Source: an uncultured Bacilli bacterium (GTDB lineage Bacteria > Bacillota_I > Bacilli_A > RF39 > UBA660). From it: 34,369 bases of DNA. The stretch covers positions 1 to 34,369 of the forward strand of contig CATNCE010000016.1 in NCBI GenBank assembly GCA_950097225.1, written 5' to 3'. A program made the position numbers and the translations under genes. Below are positions 1-20,853 of the stretch, in pieces. The notes under the pieces were generated by a model. It made no database searches. It worked only from the letters and a program-made list of their open reading frames with translations, and was not told where the DNA came from. Position 1 is the stretch's first letter. Each line of letters opens with the position of its first letter.

Positions 1-1024
1 AATTATATCCGGCTTTACATGAATATTTATTTGGATCACATCCAACACTTTCTAACTCTTCTTTTGTTATTAATCGTGTTGTTTTTATTTCTCCACCTAA
101 CTCTGCTAATTTTGTTGCATATTCATCAACATACTCTTTAATTACACTTATACTATAATCATTTAGTTTTAATTTGTTTTCTTCTGATAATCCTTCATTA
201 GCTTGATTATACTTTTCTTCTGTTGTATATGGCACTACTCCAATAAACGGAAAAACTTCAGCTATGCTTCCATCCTCTTTTACTTCACCAACTGCTCCTT
301 TAGCACTTGGATCTTGTAACCCAGTTGGATTTTCTATTGGGGTGACTGTATATGAGGAATTCATTGTTGTTCCTCCAACATGCAAGTTATATCTAGCTAT
401 TGCTGATATATTATCTCCTTCGATATTATAGACATAGAATGACTCACTACCTAAGGTGATTAGGTCTCCTACAGATACCTCACCATTATTATCATTGTCC
501 TCAGTTATCTCCCATGCACTTTTTACTTTATCAGCTGGTGTTCCATCAGACACTTCTTCTCTTGAAACAGCACTTCCAACTATCTCACAAGATACCTCTA
601 CATCAGTTGTTTCTCCTACATAAGCCTTGACTAACTCAATTTTTAATGTTCCTTTTCTAGTTTCAGTTGCCAAAAGATTTGTTTCTTCATCGAACTCATT
701 AGTTATACTCAAGTACTCTGTACTATTAGTACAATTTATACTTACATTTGCATCATACTCACGACTTCCATTTGTTACATCATATTCTAATGTATAGGTT
801 TCACCAACCATACTAATATCATAATCAAACACGATATGGGTATCATCCTTGATTAAACTATTACGCTTTTTTCCATTTTCGAACGATGCCGAAAAATATA
901 CATCAAAATCAGCATCATTACTAGCTATTCTAGCATTACCATTTATTACTAACGTAGATGTTACTGCAGCAAAACCAACCACAAGAAACAACATTCCTAG
1001 TAATAACACACTTCTTCTTTTCAT
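1..1024 (-). CDS. TasA-like/lectin-like surface protein, copy 1 (3' end outside window)
   Basis: An open frame runs from an ATG at 1022-1024 to the window edge without a stop, giving the first 341 residues of a secreted or anchored protein. It aligns without gaps to 19830-20853 (copy 2); I counted about 53 mismatches by eye, roughly 95% identity. The N-terminus is a hydrophobic signal/anchor starting MKRRSVLLLG and followed by TLVINGNARI, the start of a TasA/camelysin-like beta-sandwich. A second domain follows, with the same pre-lectin segment as copy 2. The C-terminal lectin core and the possible variable region lie outside the window. The ribosome site is AGAAGG, 8 nt before ATG. Homology to copy 2 stops at the start codon, so the copies have different promoters. 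It is probably a recipient or sister of the DGR-linked gene; that role is inferred. Confidence 0.85.
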   Translation of the reverse strand, partial: MKRRSVLLLGMLFLVVGFAAVTSTLVINGNARIASNDADFDVYFSASFENGKKRNSLIKDDTHIVFDYDISMVGETYTLEYDVTNGSREYDANVSINCTNSTEYLSITNEFDEETNLLATETRKGTLKIELVKAYVGETTDVEVSCEIVGSAVSREEVSDGTPADKVKSAWEITEDNDNNGEVSVGDLITLGSESFYVYNIEGDNISAIARYNLHVGGTTMNSSYTVTPIENPTGLQDPSAKGAVGEVKEDGSIAEVFPFIGVVPYTTEEKYNQANEGLSEENKLKLNDYSISVIKEYVDEYATKLAELGGEIKTTRLITKEELESVGCDPNKYSCKAGYN

Positions 1025-12437: not shown

Positions 12438-13118
12438 CTATTTTCCCTTATTCATGCGATTTGCCTCTTCGACAACAGCTCGCAGTTTTTTATCTTCTTC
12501 TTTTTCAATGACAATATCGACTTCGCGTATTTTAGGAATTTCCTCAATTTGTCCTTTTATACGATATACTTTAATGATGCTCTTGATATCAACTAGAATA
12601 ATGGCAATGGCAGGTATGAGGATAATGATTGTCCATCCCCATTTAGACGTTAAGATTGTTTGTAATTTACCAATTTTAGGAATAATAAATTTTACTCGAC
12701 CGACAATATTTTTTTTAGTTATTAAGCCAGCATCAACATCGGAGTTGTTATCTCCTTTAGTTACATAGTAACGCACCCCATCTTTTTCATATATATCGTG
12801 TATACGATGTGTAACTGTATACCCACCAGTATCTATCACCTCGGAATAGAATGTGATGATATCGCCTACTTTTAAGCTATTTTCATCTTGAATTTTGTAG
12901 TCGACTATGACATCATTAACCATTATTTTAGGTTCCATACTTGGACTTACAATGGTGTAAAGGCTTATAGCGGGTTTAGTTCCTTTAGATTTAGCTATTT
13001 GGCTTGCAATAATGTAATACGCCAGAAGTATAGCAATTAAAAAAAGAATGACTAGACATATATACGAAAGAAATGCTAATACTTTTTTTAAAGTTAATTT
13101 TATATCCTTTGTATTCAT
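12438..13118 (-). CDS. sipW: SipW-type (ER-like) signal peptidase I
   Basis: Removes signal peptides at the outer membrane face, in Bacillus acting on TasA-type precursors. A transmembrane helix at ~18-40 precedes the catalytic serine in IVSPSMEPKI. The general base position carries His in YTVTHRIHDI rather than the Lys of bacterial-type enzymes, placing it in the SipW/ER class. KGDNNSDVDAGLI and VVSPSM-like spacing also fit. A second helix lies near the C-terminus (WTIIILIPAIAIILVDIKS), followed by a charged cytoplasmic tail. I prefer ATG 13116-13118 because AGGAG is 8 nt upstream; the ATG two codons earlier is only 2 nt from it. The TasA-like gene lies 110 bp upstream. Confidence 0.92.
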   Translation of the reverse strand: MNTKDIKLTLKKVLAFLSYICLVILFLIAILLAYYIIASQIAKSKGTKPAISLYTIVSPSMEPKIMVNDVIVDYKIQDENSLKVGDIITFYSEVIDTGGYTVTHRIHDIYEKDGVRYYVTKGDNNSDVDAGLITKKNIVGRVKFIIPKIGKLQTILTSKWGWTIIILIPAIAIILVDIKSIIKVYRIKGQIEEIPKIREVDIVIEKEEDKKLRAVVEEANRMNKGK

Positions 13119-13137
13119 ACGCATGACTCCTATTATA

Positions 13138-13201: not shown

Positions 13202-13229
13202 AAAAAAGTTCCCAAAAGGAACTCTTTTT
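13202..13229 (-). terminator. Terminator of the TasA-like gene
   Basis: AGAGTTCC/GGAACTTTT-type stem with T tract on the minus strand, directly at the stop codon. It lets the TasA-like gene be expressed at a different level from sipW. Confidence 0.8.
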
Positions 13230-13791
13230 ATTTTTTAGTTTGATTAGTAAATAAACGGGCATTAAATGTACGCTCTGGATTCATATCAGCAGTGTTTACA
13301 CGAACTATATTTACTGTATACTTGTGAGATAATCCCGAAGTAGTTGGTCCTGCAAATACACCACTTCCTAAGGAGATTGTTGTTGCCCCCGTTGGGATTG
13401 CAACGGGTTCAGTAGTTGTAGCTATAGTTGATCCATTATTGGATTCGTTATAGCTAGTAATCGTGTATGCTAATTCTCCATCTAAATAGCTATTAGCGCT
13501 AATTGCCAAAGTTACTTCATAGTTAAGATTATTTGAGCCTGTAACTATTCCTGTAACAGATATTTCTTTAACGCCAATGCTCTCGCCTTGTAAAACATTG
13601 CCATTTATAATATTGGCATCCCCATTATATTCTGCTGCTAATGTTCCGCTTGTTACTTCGAAAGTTGGAGAAGATTCCCCAGTTGGCATTAAAGCTCCAA
13701 AATAGGCAAATGTTGCTCCAACAACTGCGACCAATAAGGTGGCTATTGACATAACCGTTAAAAGTACCATATTTCCTTTACTGTTACCCAT
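13228..13791 (-). CDS. TasA/camelysin-like secreted protein (probable fibre subunit)
   Basis: A 187-residue protein with a SipW-dependent-type signal: a basic start (GNSKGN), a hydrophobic core and LLVAVVGATFAYFGA at ~residues 18-33. The mature part is predicted all-beta (Thr/Ser/Asn/Gly rich, for example GTLAAEYNGDANIINGN, EVTLAISANSYLDG), with the TasA-like ending ERTFNARLFTNQ. TasA proteins are secreted by SipW and form surface fibres; the adjacent sipW fits. The mature protein has no cysteine. The gene stands alone between its own promoter and terminator, as expected for a high-copy structural subunit. Fibre formation is inferred from family, not from sequence. Confidence 0.85.
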   Translation of the reverse strand: MGNSKGNMVLLTVMSIATLLVAVVGATFAYFGALMPTGESSPTFEVTSGTLAAEYNGDANIINGNVLQGESIGVKEISVTGIVTGSNNLNYEVTLAISANSYLDGELAYTITSYNESNNGSTIATTTEPVAIPTGATTISLGSGVFAGPTTSGLSHKYTVNIVRVNTADMNPERTFNARLFTNQTKK

Positions 13792-13949: not shown

Positions 13950-15638
13950 TTATCCTAACAAAACGAGGCGTGCGCTGTGGTATCTTCCAGCAGAACCAGT
14001 ATTTCCTTCGAAATTGAACTGGCCTGCATGGGAGCCATAGCCATAATGACCGCCGCGATTGAACCAAGGCCTAGATGAGTCCGTAAAATTCGAATAATCA
14101 CCGTGCCAGTTATTCAGGTAACCGCCAGATGCATAAAATGTCCCCATCTCTCCGGTTGCATCTCCTAGTATTCTATTGCTATATGTTGTTTGTTCACTAT
14201 TATTTGCATATACATCTATATATTTACTATAGGTATTTCTTATTTCTTCTAATGTTAGTCCACTTCCTCCTACAGTTCCATCTCGATATCCGGCTACATA
14301 TTCAAAAGCTCCACCTGACATATCATAAATCCCTGTTATGTTTCCGGTTGTACTTGCCAAATATCCAGTTTCTGTATTGTAGGGCTGATTTGTTGTTGGG
14401 CTGTAATTTGCATCTTTCATATTAGCTGCATATCCTGTTAGAAAGTTTGAATTATTATTTATTCTTACTTCTGTGTTTATTCCATATTTAGAATGTGATA
14501 GATATGCAACAGCTCCCCATTCTGTATTCTTCATCATATGCGAATCAAGTTTGCGATTATAATTATACATGGCTTTAAAGAAATTACCTAAAGAATTTGA
14601 TCTCCATGAATTTACATTAGGCTTTACTTGGACTTTTGAGGAATCACTTGAACTTACTTGAGCAGATGCAACACTAGTTGATCCTTTATATCCTGTTTCA
14701 AATTTACCTACCCACATGCCATTTATATCGAAGTTTGTGAAAGCGGGATGTGTTAACCATTCGCCATCCTTACTTCCATTTGATACTGGCGTATCTTTAC
14801 TTTCAAACTCTATTTCAATTGACTTAGCTATACTACTACTTAATTTAGTTGTTGTTCCATCCGCTTGATTAGCATGGAACAACTTATATTTGTACCTTGG
14901 TATCCACACAAAGTATGACTCGATATCACTTTCTTGAATGAGATCCCCTACATTGTAGTTTTTGCTTGGCTTATCAACTAATATTACTGTATTGGCCCAT
15001 TCTTTATTATTATAATCATACCATTTTTCACTTGGATCAGCTTTTGTTACTACTCCATTATTAGCAATTAATACAGGTACTAAATCTTTACTTATTACTG
15101 GGTCTGCTCCTCCCATGCTCTCATCTTCATATAAAACGGGTGTTATTATACCAGGTTCGTCTCTCTCACTTGGAGTTGCTGCTAACTCACAGGTGAATGT
15201 TCCTGTTGTTTCCTCTGTTAGCACCCCATTTAAAATTACTTTTAACTCTCCAGACATAATTTCATTAGATTCTAATGTAAAACTACTTGGACTGACAGAT
15301 ATATTAACAAGATTATTTAACGTACTTGATGCTTCATTCAATCCACAATTAATGGTTACAGCTGCATCATATTGAGTATTTTTATTCTTTACCCAGAATG
15401 TTAAAATTGTTTCTTCATTTATTGCACTTATTTTCTTGGCATCATATGTAATTGTTTTTCCATCTTCACTTATACTAGCAGTTCCTTCAGTTTTAGTTTT
15501 TATGAACACAACATCATCTAAGAACGTATCATTATATCCAACATTTAAACTTGAATTTATCACCAAGTTTGTTGCTATTCCTGCAAATCCTACTACGAGT
15601 GCAATAACAAAGAAATATATTACACTTTTCTTTCTCAT
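13950..15638 (-). CDS. Large TasA-like/FGE-lectin-like surface protein; candidate DGR target 2
   Basis: A 562-residue protein. Residues 1-35 are a signal/anchor (KKSVIYFFVIALVVGFAGIA, then NLVINSSLNVGYN), leading into a TasA-like beta-sandwich (~36-170) with two conserved-looking Cys (INCGLNE, FTCELAA). The long C-terminal domain carries formylglycine-enzyme/C-type-lectin hallmarks: YFVWIPRYKY, MMKNTEWGAVAYLSHSKYG, GIYDMSGGAFEYVAGYRDG and finally RPWFNRGG, SHAGQFNF and HSARLVLLG. This fold is the classic DGR receptor, and the last ~60 residues are where DGRs write variation. Codons there (CAT, TAT, GGC, CAC at candidate positions) end in T/C, as expected from AAT/AAC templates, and the segment is richer in GC than the rest. 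No matching template is in the window. AGGAGG precedes the ATG. Confidence 0.85.
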   Translation of the reverse strand: MRKKSVIYFFVIALVVGFAGIATNLVINSSLNVGYNDTFLDDVVFIKTKTEGTASISEDGKTITYDAKKISAINEETILTFWVKNKNTQYDAAVTINCGLNEASSTLNNLVNISVSPSSFTLESNEIMSGELKVILNGVLTEETTGTFTCELAATPSERDEPGIITPVLYEDESMGGADPVISKDLVPVLIANNGVVTKADPSEKWYDYNNKEWANTVILVDKPSKNYNVGDLIQESDIESYFVWIPRYKYKLFHANQADGTTTKLSSSIAKSIEIEFESKDTPVSNGSKDGEWLTHPAFTNFDINGMWVGKFETGYKGSTSVASAQVSSSDSSKVQVKPNVNSWRSNSLGNFFKAMYNYNRKLDSHMMKNTEWGAVAYLSHSKYGINTEVRINNNSNFLTGYAANMKDANYSPTTNQPYNTETGYLASTTGNITGIYDMSGGAFEYVAGYRDGTVGGSGLTLEEIRNTYSKYIDVYANNSEQTTYSNRILGDATGEMGTFYASGGYLNNWHGDYSNFTDSSRPWFNRGGHYGYGSHAGQFNFEGNTGSAGRYHSARLVLLG

Positions 15639-15957: not shown

Positions 15958-17331
15958 TTAACGATATTTTTTTAATTTAAAGTAAAATGTTGTATACTCA
16001 TTAAGTTTAGAGTCTATACCATATTCACAATTATGGCTGTCGAGAATTCCTTTAACAATTGAAAGACCAATTCCTGAACCTACAACATTACGCTTATGAC
16101 GCTTATCTTTTTTATAGTAACGATTCCATACTAGTTTCTTTTCCTCTTCAGTTAAGCCGGCTCCAGTATCAGTAATACTTATTATATAAAAATCCCTTTG
16201 CTTTTTGACAGCTATTTTAACTATTAAGTCATTGCCAGTATGTTCAATGGCATTATTAACAAGATTATATATAACTTGTTCTATTTTCGATTTATCAGCT
16301 TTAATGATTGCCTTATCTGGTAAGTCTAGTTCAAATTTATATCCTTCTTTTTCAATCGTAATGTCATAGCGTTTTAATATTTCATGGATATTTTCAATTA
16401 GATCATATTTTTCTAGCTTTAGTTCGCTTGCACCAGCTTGAATTTTCGACATATCTAATAAGTCATTTACTAAAGCATTTAAACGATCTGTCTCGTCAAT
16501 AATGACATTTAAATCCTTTTCCCTTTTTTCGGGATCTTTATAAGATAGATCACGAACCTTTTCTGCATAAGCTTTAATCATCGTTAGTGGGGTTTTTAAG
16601 TCATGGGATACATTGGCGATTAAATCACGTTTTAGTTCTTCGGTTTTATGCATTTCTGAGGCAGCAATAGTCAACACATCCGATAATTCATCTAATTCTT
16701 CAATATTACTCTTTTCAAACTTAACGTCAAAATTTCCCTTACCTAATTCTCGAGCACTAGATATTATCTTTAAAATTGGTTTATTTAAACGACGAGATAG
16801 GAAAATAGCCATAAAGCTAGAGACAAATATTAAAAATAAAAAGATGTATATTAATTGACGCTTTAAAAGAGAAGTGGCTGAGTTCATATCCTCTAAAGTA
16901 GTATTTAAAAATATATATTGATTATTTCCTAAATTGATAGCGTATAAAATACTCTTAATTTTACTCTTAGGAGATAACAGCTTTATATAGTCTTCCCCTT
17001 CATTAATTAACTCAGCTTTATACTTAGCTATTTCATAACTATAATTAGTTAGTAAACAATTATTTTTTTTTATGTTATAGTCAATTTCTTCATTGTTGGT
17101 ATAGTATTCTATACACATGTCATAAGAATAAGCATACTCTTCTAACAAAGGATCCAGGTTACCTTCATAGTTTCGAATATTCTTGGCGACTTGATTTATA
17201 TTATCGATAACATATTTTTCATAAAATAGTTGGAGAAACTGAATTTGAATTAACCAAAGAGCTAGTAAGATAAGCGATATGAAAACACTTACATAGGTTA
17301 AGGTTTTAATTGTCAGTTTACTACTCTTCAT
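15958..17331 (-). CDS. Membrane sensor histidine kinase
   Basis: A 457-residue kinase. TM1 is at ~9-31 and TM2 at ~160-180, with an external sensor of ~125 residues between them that holds two cysteines (DMCIEYY, NNCLL). HAMP follows at ~180-232, then a HisKA dimer domain with phospho-accepting His243 in ANVSHDLKTPL. The ATPase domain has the N box (QVIYNLVNNAIEHT), G1 (ITDTGAG) and G2 (GSGIGLSIV). Its start overlaps the response regulator stop by 11 bp, so the pair is translationally coupled. It is oriented with, and lies between, the DGR-like cassette and surface gene 13950. The signal and targets are unknown; the PhoR/ResE-like architecture gives no specificity. Confidence 0.95.
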   Translation of the reverse strand: MKSSKLTIKTLTYVSVFISLILLALWLIQIQFLQLFYEKYVIDNINQVAKNIRNYEGNLDPLLEEYAYSYDMCIEYYTNNEEIDYNIKKNNCLLTNYSYEIAKYKAELINEGEDYIKLLSPKSKIKSILYAINLGNNQYIFLNTTLEDMNSATSLLKRQLIYIFLFLIFVSSFMAIFLSRRLNKPILKIISSARELGKGNFDVKFEKSNIEELDELSDVLTIAASEMHKTEELKRDLIANVSHDLKTPLTMIKAYAEKVRDLSYKDPEKREKDLNVIIDETDRLNALVNDLLDMSKIQAGASELKLEKYDLIENIHEILKRYDITIEKEGYKFELDLPDKAIIKADKSKIEQVIYNLVNNAIEHTGNDLIVKIAVKKQRDFYIISITDTGAGLTEEEKKLVWNRYYKKDKRHKRNVVGSGIGLSIVKGILDSHNCEYGIDSKLNEYTTFYFKLKKYR

Positions 17332-17980
17332 AGATAAATTTATATCCTACTTTTCTAACCGTTTTTATAGAGTCGCGATATTTTCCTAATTTATTGCGAA
17401 GAAGTTTAATATGCGCATCGATAGTGCGATCATCAGCTTCATAATCATATCCCCAAATGTTCTCGATTATTTTATCACGAGATAAAGCAATCCCTGGGTT
17501 AGTAAGAAACAACTCTAGAAGTTCAAATTGTGTATGTGTAACTTCAACATACTCACCATCTACACTTACTTCGCGGGATAATTTATTTAATATAATACTT
17601 CCAATAGTAATTATTTCACTTTCACTGTTGCGCTTAGTCACTGCTTTAATTCTTGCAACTAATTCTTTAGGAGAAAATGGTTTAGTGACATAATCATCGA
17701 TTCCCAAATTAAATCCTTGAAGTTTATCTATTTCTTCAACGCGAGCAGACAACATTATAATAGGGATATTCTTTATTTCTTTTATTTCCTTAACAGCTTG
17801 ATATCCGTCCATATGGGGCATCATTATGTCCATAATTATCAGGTCATAATTATTTTTTTCGACTAATTCAATAGCCGAACGTCCATCACTAGCTTCATCA
17901 CACGTATAATTCTCAGCTTCAACGTAATCTTTTATAACACCTCTTATTAGTTCTTCATCATCAACAATTAATAAATGCAT
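17321..17980 (-). CDS. OmpR/PhoB-family response regulator
   Basis: A 219-residue DNA-binding regulator. The receiver domain (~1-118) has the acidic pocket LLIVDDEE, phospho-acceptor Asp51 in IIMDIMMP, the Ser in IIMLSAR and Lys in YVTKPF. The winged helix (~128-219) shows LSREVSVDGE, TQFELLELFLTNPG, LSRDKIIENIWGYD and DDRTIDAHIKLLRNKLG. The ATG at 17978-17980 is chosen because AGGTGA is 6 nt upstream; a GTG three codons earlier lies in that site. It precedes its kinase in the same operon and is 66 bp downstream of the RT gene, so readthrough from the DGR-like cassette is possible. Target genes are unknown; the neighbouring surface genes are natural candidates. Confidence 0.95.
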   Translation of the reverse strand: MHLLIVDDEELIRGVIKDYVEAENYTCDEASDGRSAIELVEKNNYDLIIMDIMMPHMDGYQAVKEIKEIKNIPIIMLSARVEEIDKLQGFNLGIDDYVTKPFSPKELVARIKAVTKRNSESEIITIGSIILNKLSREVSVDGEYVEVTHTQFELLELFLTNPGIALSRDKIIENIWGYDYEADDRTIDAHIKLLRNKLGKYRDSIKTVRKVGYKFIYEE

Positions 17981-18046
17981 ATATTTCACCTACTGATTAA
18001 TATATTAACTTAGTTTTGTGAAAAATAAAAGAAAAATACTTATACT

Positions 18047-19048
18047 TTATCGTTGATGGTATTTTACATATTTTTGATATATACCATAGCAGTCCCCATA
18101 TTTTAAATGACCATGATAACTATTTCTTACAGCCCGATACCGATCTATTGCAATATTCTTCTTTTCAAACTCACTAGTAATTCTCTTCATTTTTCCCTTG
18201 AATTTATCTTTAGTTTTTTTCGTTAATCTTTTTTTAGTATTGCCATTTTTAGATGAATATCTAAATCCTAAAAACTCGATAGACTCCGTATTCTTATAAA
18301 TTTTTGTCTTATTATTTAATGTTAATTTATATTCTTCTTTTAAAATTTTATCGATTTTAATTAAAGCATCTTGAAGCTTCTTTTTATCCTCACACATAAT
18401 ATAAAAATCATCCATATATCGCGCATAGTGCTTAAATCCTAGAGTATAAACAATATATTTATCGAGTTTATCTAGATAAATTGTAGCAATTATTTGGGAA
18501 ACCATATTGCCGATACAGGTTCCACAGCCAAAGTTATAGCAAGGAAGTTTATCGACTTCTGCTATTTTTATATTCTTATTAGAACAATTGCTATTTGCTA
18601 TTCTTTTTAATTCATTTCTTTTTAAATTATTAATTGTGTCATTTACATATGTTTCATTAGTAGAATCTATTATTTTATATAGCAAGTTTAAAGCATCTTT
18701 ATCTTTTATCTTGTTTCTTATTATATTCTTTATTACGTCATGATCTAAACTATAGAAATATTTAGATATGTTCATTTTAAGAATATAAAAAGTTTTATAT
18801 TTATTTTTATAGTAGTTATAATCACGTCTGAATATGCGCATAGCATAGTGAGTACCTTTTCCTACTCTTGTAGCACAATTTCTACTAATTAAAGATTTAT
18901 CAAATACATCTACTAAAAAATATTTAGCTGCTAGATGGTTAATGATTTTATCTTTTATTTCCTGAGACATTATTATTCGCAGTTTTGGTTCTTTAATTAA
19001 GAATATGTTATAGAAACCTGGAGTATATGTTTTAGTTAACACAATCAT
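18047..19048 (-). CDS. DGR-type reverse transcriptase with altered motif A
   Basis: A 333-residue RT. It opens FYNIFLIKEPKLRIIMSQEI, equivalent to about residue 65 of the Bordetella phage bRT, so the usual ~50-residue N-terminal segment is absent. VGKGTHYAM (63-70) fits the DGR RT finger. Motif 4 reads CIGNMVSQ (178-185), the IGxxxSQ form diagnostic of DGR RTs; retron and group II RTs have other forms. The catalytic motif C, ARYMDDFYIM (YMDD 211-214), is intact, and FLGFRY follows. Motif A, normally KxDISKFF, is KMNISKYF: Asn93 (AAC codon) replaces a metal-binding Asp. An insertion of ~40 residues precedes motif 4. GGAG lies 4 nt before the ATG and no in-frame upstream start exists. The DGR class is firm; catalytic competence is doubtful. 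Confidence 0.88.
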   Translation of the reverse strand: MIVLTKTYTPGFYNIFLIKEPKLRIIMSQEIKDKIINHLAAKYFLVDVFDKSLISRNCATRVGKGTHYAMRIFRRDYNYYKNKYKTFYILKMNISKYFYSLDHDVIKNIIRNKIKDKDALNLLYKIIDSTNETYVNDTINNLKRNELKRIANSNCSNKNIKIAEVDKLPCYNFGCGTCIGNMVSQIIATIYLDKLDKYIVYTLGFKHYARYMDDFYIMCEDKKKLQDALIKIDKILKEEYKLTLNNKTKIYKNTESIEFLGFRYSSKNGNTKKRLTKKTKDKFKGKMKRITSEFEKKNIAIDRYRAVRNSYHGHLKYGDCYGIYQKYVKYHQR

Positions 19049-19092
19049 ACATCTCCATAATAGAGTCTATATTGCATATTTTATGATATATG

Positions 19093-19434
19093 TTATTCAC
19101 TCTTTTCATCAAACTTAATCCATGAGAGCACCATATTATTTATATCAAATAAATGGCGTGAACATCCTTCATATTTTTTCTTACTTATAAGTTCTTTTTT
19201 GTAACTTATCTTTAAATAGTAGTCTAACATGTTTATCTTAGTTATAATTCTTAATTGATTATTTGCACGATCTACTCCGTTGTTTGCAAGATAGGCAAGT
19301 TCGATTAAAGTAAGAAGATCTTTTTCTATATATTTTTTTAGTTCTAAGTATTTATGAGGATAATTTTCTAAATTTATACTTATATATTCATAGGTTTTCT
19401 TTAGTTTAGTTATTATTAGTAATTTATCTTTCAT
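19093..19434 (-). CDS. avd: Avd-like accessory variability determinant (four-helix bundle)
   Basis: A 113-residue helical protein. In known DGRs Avd forms a pentamer that binds the template RNA and RT and is needed for mutagenic cDNA synthesis. The sequence fits the bAvd/23S-IVP four-helix family: charged amphipathic helices with YEYISINLENYPHKYLELKK, the conserved-looking LIELAYLANN and RANNQLRIITKINMLDYYLK, the kink ELISKKKY and a last helix ending NNMVLSWIK. The length matches the family (~110-130). It sits 44 bp upstream of the RT in the same direction. AAAGGAG is the ribosome site, and a terminator-like hairpin lies immediately upstream. Presence with an IGxxxSQ RT makes Avd the best reading; an unrelated 23S-IVP paralogue is the alternative. 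Confidence 0.85.
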   Translation of the reverse strand: MKDKLLIITKLKKTYEYISINLENYPHKYLELKKYIEKDLLTLIELAYLANNGVDRANNQLRIITKINMLDYYLKISYKKELISKKKYEGCSRHLFDINNMVLSWIKFDEKSE

Positions 19435-19451
19435 GTTTAGTGCTCCTTTAT

Positions 19452-19485
19452 AAAAAAGACTTTCTCCTGCCCTTTAGAGAAAGTC
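19452..19485 (-). terminator. Terminator/attenuator in front of avd
   Basis: GACTTTCTC and GAGAAAGTC make a perfect 9-bp stem (19458-19466/19477-19485) with a 10-nt loop and a T run, about 10 nt before the avd ribosome site. It would end transcripts from the surface gene and allow only readthrough into avd-RT. Confidence 0.85.
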
Positions 19486-19635
19486 AAATATAGTTTTAGT
19501 AAAAACTTGTTTTTCGTAACTTTACTACTAATCCTTGTTTTACATCTATATTAATATTTTATCTTTTCGATATGGATAATACTTGTTTTCTTTAGCTTCA
19601 CATTACACAGATCTTTTAAAAGAATATTTGTAATC
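19486..19635 (-). other. Non-coding spacer between surface gene copy 2 and avd
   Basis: A 150-nt transcribed spacer with hairpins: ATTACA/TGTAAT (19602-19634) around TCTTTTAAAAGA, and TAGTAAA/TTTACTA (19497-19503/19521-19527). In characterised DGRs a structured spacer lies 3' of the template repeat; by position this segment could be the equivalent. No repeat of a variable region is present within it. Confidence 0.45.
19602..19634 (-). repeat. Inverted repeat immediately 3' of the variable-region candidate
   Basis: ATTACA (19602-19607) pairs with TGTAAT (19629-19634) around a perfect 12-nt palindrome TCTTTTAAAAGA (19612-19623), starting 1 nt past the stop codon. DGR targets often carry a hairpin/cruciform just 3' of the variable repeat; a simple terminator is the alternative, though no T tract follows. 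Confidence 0.55.
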
Positions 19636-19760
19636 CTAAGTTTTAAAGAAAGCTGGGCGCACACCAAGGTCGTTGTCGTTGTTAACGTTGTTGTTGTCAA
19701 AGTTGCCGATAGAGTTGACACTCCAAACGTTCTCGACAATCTCCGCATAAGGCGAAGAAG
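19636..19760 (-). other. Candidate DGR variable/template region (AAC-rich C-terminus)
   Basis: The last ~41 codons of surface protein copy 2. All nine asparagines after the YWTSS motif use AAC, while earlier parts of the gene mostly use AAT. Other codons are GAC and GTC, one or two A changes from AAC. It ends in the conserved-looking LGVRPAFF. This is what a DGR template, or a barely mutated variable repeat, looks like. No second copy exists in the window. Confidence 0.55.
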
Positions 19761-20853
19761 TCCAGTATGATGTTGTATACATGTATTCTGGCGCTCCTGC
19801 AACTCTGGCATCTTCTGTCATGTTATTATAATTATATCCAGCTTTACATGAATATTTATTTGGATCACATCCAACACTTTCTAACTCTTCTTTTGTGATT
19901 AACCGGGTTGTTTTTATTTCTCCATCTAACTCTGCTAATTTTGTTGCATATTCATCAACATACTCTTTAATTACACTTATACTATAATCATTTGGTTTTA
20001 ATTTGTTTTCTTCGGCTACACCTTCACTAGCTTGATTATACTTTTCTTCTGTTGTGTATGGCACTACTCCAATAAAAGGAAATACTTCATCTATGTTTCC
20101 ATTCTCTTTTACTTCACCAACTGCTCCTCTAGCACTTGGATCTTGTAATCCAGTTGGATTTTCTATTGGGGTGACTGTATATGAGGAATCCATTGTTGTT
20201 CCTCCAACATGCAAATTGTATCTAGCTATAGCTGAGACATTATCTCCTTCAATATTATAGACATAGAATGATTCACTACCTAAGGTAATTAAGTCTCCTA
20301 CAGATACTTCTCCATTATTATCATTATCCTCTGTTATCTCCCATGCACTTTTTACTTTATCAGCTGGCGTTCCATCAGACACTTCTTCTCTTGAAACAGC
20401 ACTTCCAACTATCTCACAAGATACCTCTACATCAGTTGTCTCTCCTACATAAGCCTTGATTAACTCAATTTTTAATGTTCCTTTTCTAGTTTCAGTTGCT
20501 AAGAGATTAGTCTCTTCATCGAACTCATTAGTTATACCCAAGTACTCTGTACTATTAGTACAATTTATACTTACACTTGCATCATACTCACGACTTCCAT
20601 TTGTTACGTCATACTCTAATGTATAGGTTTCACCAACCATACTAATATCATAATCAAACACGATATGAGTATCATCCTTGATTAAACTATTACGCTTTTT
20701 TCCATTTTCGAATGATGCAGAAAAATACACATCAAAATCGTCATCATTACTAGCTATTCTAGCATTACCATTTATTACTAACGTAGATGTTACTGCAGCA
20801 AATCCAACCATAAGAAACAACATACCTAGTAATAACACACTTCTTCTTTTCAT
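19636..20853 (-). CDS. TasA-like/lectin-like surface protein, copy 2; candidate DGR target 1
   Basis: A 405-residue protein next to avd and RT. Residues 1-34 are a signal/anchor (MKRRSVLLLGMLFLMVGFAA). A TasA-like beta-sandwich follows (~35-155; two Cys in INCTNS and VSCEIVG). A lectin-like C-terminal domain (~165-405) comes next: SFYVYNIEGDNVSAIARYNL, IGVVPYTTEEKYNQ, EIKTTRLITKEE, YWTSSPYAE, VWSV and GVRPAFF. Calcium-like DNDNNGEVS occurs at its start. The variable or template candidate is the Asn/Asp-rich stretch just before LGVRP. Copy 1 at 1-1024 is ~95% identical with no indel. The upstream region differs completely from copy 1, and a TTAACA/TGTTAA repeat lies in its promoter. Ligand and exact function are unknown; surface binding protein is the reasonable reading. 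Confidence 0.88.
   Translation of the reverse strand: MKRRSVLLLGMLFLMVGFAAVTSTLVINGNARIASNDDDFDVYFSASFENGKKRNSLIKDDTHIVFDYDISMVGETYTLEYDVTNGSREYDASVSINCTNSTEYLGITNEFDEETNLLATETRKGTLKIELIKAYVGETTDVEVSCEIVGSAVSREEVSDGTPADKVKSAWEITEDNDNNGEVSVGDLITLGSESFYVYNIEGDNVSAIARYNLHVGGTTMDSSYTVTPIENPTGLQDPSARGAVGEVKENGNIDEVFPFIGVVPYTTEEKYNQASEGVAEENKLKPNDYSISVIKEYVDEYATKLAELDGEIKTTRLITKEELESVGCDPNKYSCKAGYNYNNMTEDARVAGAPEYMYTTSYWTSSPYAEIVENVWSVNSIGNFDNNNVNNDNDLGVRPAFFKT

Follow-up and report, generated by a model that had tools for sequence, protein, structure and literature searches.

The locus raises two questions, namely whether a diversity-generating retroelement (DGR) is coupled here to a bacterial surface protein, and where in the genome the diversified protein ends are encoded. 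An earlier note on the window (the whole stretch of 34,369 nucleotides that was analysed) had described a DGR-like cassette attached to a TasA-like surface protein with a diversified, Asn-rich C-terminus.

Reverse transcriptase, Avd and gene order in the window

Open reading frame calls placed the surface gene, avd and the reverse transcriptase (RT) gene in this order on the minus strand (Table 1), just as the earlier note had it. The RT of this first DGR (DGR-A), named RT-A, matched the profiles RVT_1 (1.4e-11) and phrog_1423 (2e-79), and carries the motifs IGNMVSQ and YMDD. It aligned with Brt of phage BPP-1 at an E-value of 6e-26, and its best PDB chain was 8ub7_A (9e-21), with group II RTs ranking behind. 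These results bear out the proposed DGR-type RT with an IGxxxSQ motif. They also place RT-A with the DGR RTs, to which it aligned better than to a group II RT; a tree of nine RT rows was mostly without resolution and is not counted as evidence. A role as a defence RT was considered and rejected, as the PADLOC defence RT families gave weaker matches than the DGR-containing PHROG family.

The proposed Avd was confirmed by phrog_3206, annotated as 'Avd protein of DGR' (9e-15), and the NCBIfam model DivGenRetAVD (2e-11) and the Pfam model bAvd (4e-9) matched below their curated cut-offs. Both the RT-A and the avd reading frames are intact. A response regulator and sensor kinase pair was found after the RT gene on the same strand (window 15958-17989). 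Relatives of RT-A are common in this uncultured gut-type Bacilli family, being detected in 103 of 386 genomes at E<=1e-40, and the named relatives include Candidatus Onthousia.

Table 1. Positions of the features discussed, with the evidence for each
Feature	Position in window	Strand	Evidence
DGR-A reverse transcriptase (RT-A), 333 aa	18047..19048	-	phrog_1423; IGNMVSQ/YMDD; Brt alignment; PDB 8ub7_A
DGR-A avd, 113 aa	19093..19434	-	phrog_3206; DivGenRetAVD; bAvd
RT-linked surface protein gene, 405 aa, family of DGR-A targets	19636..20853	-	ORF; five paralogs with 71-95% protein identity
Template-like (TR) region, 3' end of the RT-linked gene	19655..19719	-	adenine-biased differences from five paralogs; NNC codons retained
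Beginning of the DGR RNA spacer, which follows the template-like region immediately	19574..19654	-	flank like that of relatives' TRs; single copy in genome
AGTATTATCC, 3' arm of the TR-enclosing helix known from relatives	19574-19583	-	helix in 16 relatives
DGR-A surface-gene paralog, truncated at the contig end shortly before the variable region	2..1024	-	95% protein identity
SipW-type signal peptidase I	12438..13124	-	sigpep_I_arch 95.7 bits (cut-off 51.85); SigPepSipWBacil 9e-27, below cut-off
Small secreted protein (TasA-like in the earlier note)	13228..13791	-	signal-like N-terminus; no family model above cut-off
DGR-B target-family member, 562 aa	13950..15638	-	sequence matches; shared N-terminal domain
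Variable region of the preceding gene, aligned to the C49 template	13965..14094	-	13/36 A and 16/94 non-A changed

The end of the RT-linked gene and its remote paralogs

Five close paralogs of the DGR-A surface gene were found in the genome, one of them divided between two contigs. The first part of this paralog lies at the beginning of the window and probably continues on contig C35, the join resting on a 13-nt overlap. Over the last 65 bases, the five paralogs carry a changed base at 68 of 100 adenine sites of the RT-linked copy, as compared to 25 of 225 sites with another base. Of the 17 columns that vary most, 16 have an A in the RT-linked copy. The Fisher p of 1e-24 for this bias assumes independent sites, which these are not. 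A better test of template status was found in codon use. Where the RT-linked copy has AAC or GAC codons, the other copies kept a C-ending codon in 42 of 50 cases, as compared to only 11-20% C-ending codons among the NNY codons of the gene bodies. The adenine bias and the retained C-ending codons together indicate that the RT-linked tip is the template sequence and the remote tips are its products. The C-terminus of the RT-linked gene is indeed Asn-rich as claimed, but the spacer flank and the adenine bias of the paralogs mark it as template sequence and not as a diversified tip; by the same comparison the diversified DGR-A tips are placed in the five remote paralogs. The adenine-biased variation that the earlier note had set as a test was strong in the comparisons for DGR-A as well as for the second DGR described below. 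A second hypervariable stretch was observed in the middle of the protein (about window 20053-20203) and in paralogs L013-L017, with no template seen for it.

The variable region (VR) of the RT-linked gene is itself of two kinds, its 5' half looking diversified and its 3' half template-like. The gene ends in AFFKT and a stop, unlike the VIEISKSLF of the paralogs, and this end resembles the flank that follows the TRs of relatives (TFHKT, IFHKT, TFLET). A separate TR of DGR-A was found neither in the window by an adenine-tolerant scan nor in the genome by a spacer search, the spacer sequence being present in one copy only. No other assemblies of the same species were found among genome contigs, viral contigs and the genus set.

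We compared about 90 loci of relatives, and most of those that were long enough showed a stand-alone TR beside avd and RT. In 27 of the relatives' TR-VR pairs, 441 of 856 template adenines were changed as compared to 29 of 1775 other positions, the latter rate being biased low because the pairs were selected for few non-A mismatches. At 16 loci (L072-L131) an 11-bp helix encloses the TR, with GGGATAATACT as the 5' arm and AGTATTATCCC as the 3' arm, and compensating variants were seen between genomes. Pairing was 11/11 in 14 relatives and 10/11 in two, whereas shuffled arms reached 11/11 in 3 of 800 cases. At four loci (L103, L111, L118 and L130) neither a TR nor a variable gene was found close to the avd-RT pair, and these loci are either degenerate or have their templates in trans.

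DGR-A keeps the 3' arm of this helix without the 5' arm that relatives conserve. Because of the missing arm, DGR-A may be inactive. The only candidate for a replacement 5' arm was GGATGATACT, located 1.1 kb upstream within coding sequence, and it was judged a chance match.

As assembled, the DGR-A template forms the in-frame 3' end of the RT-linked gene; this fusion could be present in the cell, or it could have arisen when the assembler collapsed the VR-TR repeat. On the simplest reading VR and TR were joined and the interval between them was lost, an outcome that recombination in the cell and collapse during assembly would both yield. If the assembler jumped from the VR to the TR and dropped about 300 nt, the true genome would have an ordinary VR gene and, apart from it, a TR. 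A stand-alone TR is the rule in the relatives' loci, with a VR-TR gap of about 300 nt, and no second fused case was seen among them. The 5' helix arm and the 3' flank of the VR are both absent, as expected after a jump, and further contigs of the same assembly end in or beside these repeats. However, contigs normally break at such repeats, as in the locus of the second DGR, which starts inside a VR. The template-like stretch also departs at a few sites from the template implied by the recipients (shared non-A differences), and it is therefore not simply the present TR. For DGR-A alone we regard such a collapse as somewhat probable, and put it slightly ahead because stand-alone TRs are usual in relatives and the assembly is a draft from a metagenome.

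A real fusion, again for DGR-A alone, is a serious possibility that we hold tentatively. Here a VR-TR recombination would have deleted the interval, leaving the 3' end of a translated gene as the sole template, whether used or frozen. Consistent with this, the frame is open into the TR flank and stops after AFFKT, the spacer is single-copy, and RT and avd are intact. Moreover, the recipients on contigs C10 and C35 are identical for about 125 nt upstream and differ only 3' of the point where the template-like stretch begins. The loss of the conserved 5' helix arm argues against a real fusion, as does its occurrence in one case only, in a draft assembly.

A second DGR and its family of probable remote targets

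Searches of the genome's contigs, on which all genome-wide counts are based, revealed a second DGR (DGR-B) on contig C49. This contig begins inside the DGR-B VR and continues with a stand-alone TR (187-316), avd and RT. The TR has AAC or AAT in 13 codons and the RT (RT-B) is a DGR RT 33% identical to Brt. Its avd has one in-frame stop (L209, G000:C49, 742-744).

Altogether 48 gene copies were compared with the C49 TR, and in the pooled comparison 848 of 1671 adenines and 775 of 4315 other positions were changed. Five copies, in which 18-20 of the 36 adenines were changed, showed no non-A change over 93-94 positions, and nine had at most one non-A change. Eighteen copies had at most 7% of non-A sites and 39-58% of adenines changed. 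In the other 30 of the 48, more than 7% of the non-A sites do not agree with the present template. These diverged copies may be retired or may have been served by older templates, and we treat them as adenine-enriched members of the family, short of proven current recipients. On these comparisons DGR-B appears to serve at least 18 genes in trans, and perhaps 48. Most members of the family are 560-573 aa long. They share their N-terminal domain with the DGR-A proteins, and within their tips the first and second positions of a codon vary as a pair. The shared domain was found upstream of 30 of 49 VR-B matches, and several others are cut by contig ends. A family-model search with the VR-B gene gave no match. 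One member of the family lies in the window (Table 1), and its variable region reads as an older copy, among the 30 that have diverged.

We also considered whether the tips could be ordinary paralogs under diversifying selection or recombination, with no DGR activity at all. The middle of the DGR-A proteins varies among paralogs too, with no obvious template, and many VR-B copies bear non-A changes, as such an explanation would have it. Against it, many copies agree with the template at its non-A positions while roughly half of its adenines are changed, third-position C was retained in DGR-A tips (42/50) far above its share in the gene bodies, and RT, Avd and TR are adjacent. We consider an explanation without DGR activity highly improbable.

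DGR-B was also found in another species of the genus (G021), which has an RT-B ortholog (70%). There the RT is accompanied by a stand-alone TR, a cis VR and an Avd that is intact (72 bits against a cut-off of 40), and the cis VR differs from the TR at 9 of 34 adenines and at none of 121 other positions. The VR-B family had 47 matches in this species, one of them the TR itself. The orthologous DGR and the like-sized family show that neither is an artefact of one assembly. Only 2 of the 46 copies had at most 7% non-A changes, and the share of recently rewritten targets thus differs between the two species. Two other genomes of the genus (G196 and G198) had 8-9 VR-B family members and yet no RT-B match at E<=1e-15.

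The surface-protein system and its relation to known DGRs

The DGR-B family member in the window adjoins the small secreted gene and sipW (Table 1). The earlier note had proposed a sipW-tasA unit near the DGR; the sipW assignment stands, with the sigpep_I_arch match above its cut-off, while the TasA-like protein found no family model above cut-off. The TasA/camelysin-like N-terminus claimed for the surface protein was not recovered either, since searches of Pfam, NCBIfam and PDB profiles with the window surface proteins gave no match for this domain, be it to a TasA, camelysin or SipW-dependent family or to any other. PDB sequence and profile searches returned nothing for the RT-linked protein, and its AlphaFold model (mean pLDDT 44.6) was too poor for use or for a fold search. 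Its C-terminus, a candidate variable domain of the C-type lectin (CLec) kind, matched DUF6273 at 22.8 bits, just below the cut-off of 23.5.

The DGR target of one relative (L105), in contrast to the window proteins, which match none of the BsaA, camelysin or TasA models, is a member of TIGR04090, the BsaA family SipW-dependent biofilm matrix protein (103.8 bits, cut-off 60), and also scored above cut-off for TIGR04088 and for the camelysin/TasA model PF12389. Within this bacterial family, DGR and SipW-type secretion are therefore found together. In the case of the window proteins, which share the window with a SipW-type peptidase, the same link is suggested by their signal region, their gene neighbours and the domain that they have in common. 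The claimed coupling of a DGR to a SipW/TasA-type surface family is thus supported, and on a larger scale than proposed, through the DGR-B family and the L105 target, but not through the RT-linked tip, which is template. Diversification may serve fibre-linked binding, as the earlier note suggested. Targets of four relatives (L095, L098, L107 and L109) had a type IV prepilin-like N-terminus (FTLIELLAVI) and no SipW-type signal.

RTs, Avds, templates, adenine-biased VRs and the shared N-terminal domain were all seen directly. Taken together, it is very probable that two DGRs feed one surface-protein system, whose tips would form a large diversified binding repertoire; the transfer of cDNA, export by SipW, surface display and ligand binding are steps that we infer. 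Points that speak against this reading are the 30 diverged VR-B copies, the in-frame stop in the C49 avd, the missing 5' helix arm of DGR-A and the negative model and structure searches with the N-terminal domain. In BPP-1, TR RNA and spacer recruit RT-Avd, and cDNA with errors at adenines replaces the VR (PMC12875486). Likewise, each DGR here would reverse-transcribe its template RNA with adenine-directed errors, and the cDNA would be placed into the 3' ends of target genes. The target proteins would have a secreted N-terminal domain in common and a variable tip at the end, and the SipW-type peptidase probably takes part in their export. DGR-B would act from a normal stand-alone template on recipients in trans (18 strong, up to 48), and DGR-A on five remote recipients. 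With one template and many recipients, each cell could hold a set of differing tips, and recipients may drift apart while the invariant scaffold stays.

The system resembles the DGR of Bordetella phage BPP-1 (mtd-avd-TR-brt) in its RT and Avd, and in a target gene whose 3' end carries a VR with A-directed differences from the TR. Unlike BPP-1, it is cellular and has two DGRs, many remote targets and, in DGR-A, a template fused to a gene. The Treponema denticola DGR similarly uses one TR for several remote surface-protein targets of the TvpA type, with seven or eight lipoprotein targets (PMC4891356), whereas here there are 18 to 48 targets, whose N-terminal domain is a different one. Genomes with several DGR loci and with remote targets include those of Thiohalocapsa PB-PSB1 (PMC10907252) and of cyanobacteria, where the remote targets are CLec proteins (PMC7517822). 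PB-PSB1 has 15 targets at nine loci, mostly conflict-system proteins (PMC10907252), as compared to one secreted family here. TRs are mostly intergenic (PMC8144416). A TR overlapping an ORF is known from DiGReF group 3 DGRs, but there the overlap is with the RT ORF (PMC3521204) and here with a gene of the target family. No report of a DGR joined with TasA was found in the literature covered by our limited search.

The number of DGR-B targets, 18 to 48, exceeds the published examples with which we compared it, a comparison that was not exhaustive. Surveys restricted to the RT neighbourhood would miss nearly all of these targets, a limit stated by Roux et al. (PMC8144416). A stronger reading is that the 3' end of a translated family member is itself a DGR template, the gene being both protein and donor for remote paralogs, while the second DGR rewrites dozens of siblings from one stand-alone template. 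We consider this reading unlikely; if true, a bacterial surface repertoire would be constructed like a multigene antigen family. One template for at least 18, and possibly 48, genes in a 1.6-Mb genome would in itself amount to a large DGR-driven repertoire. For uncultured gut Bacilli, the finding would link diversification by DGRs with secretion of the SipW/TasA type, and it offers a natural system for asking what cellular DGRs bind.
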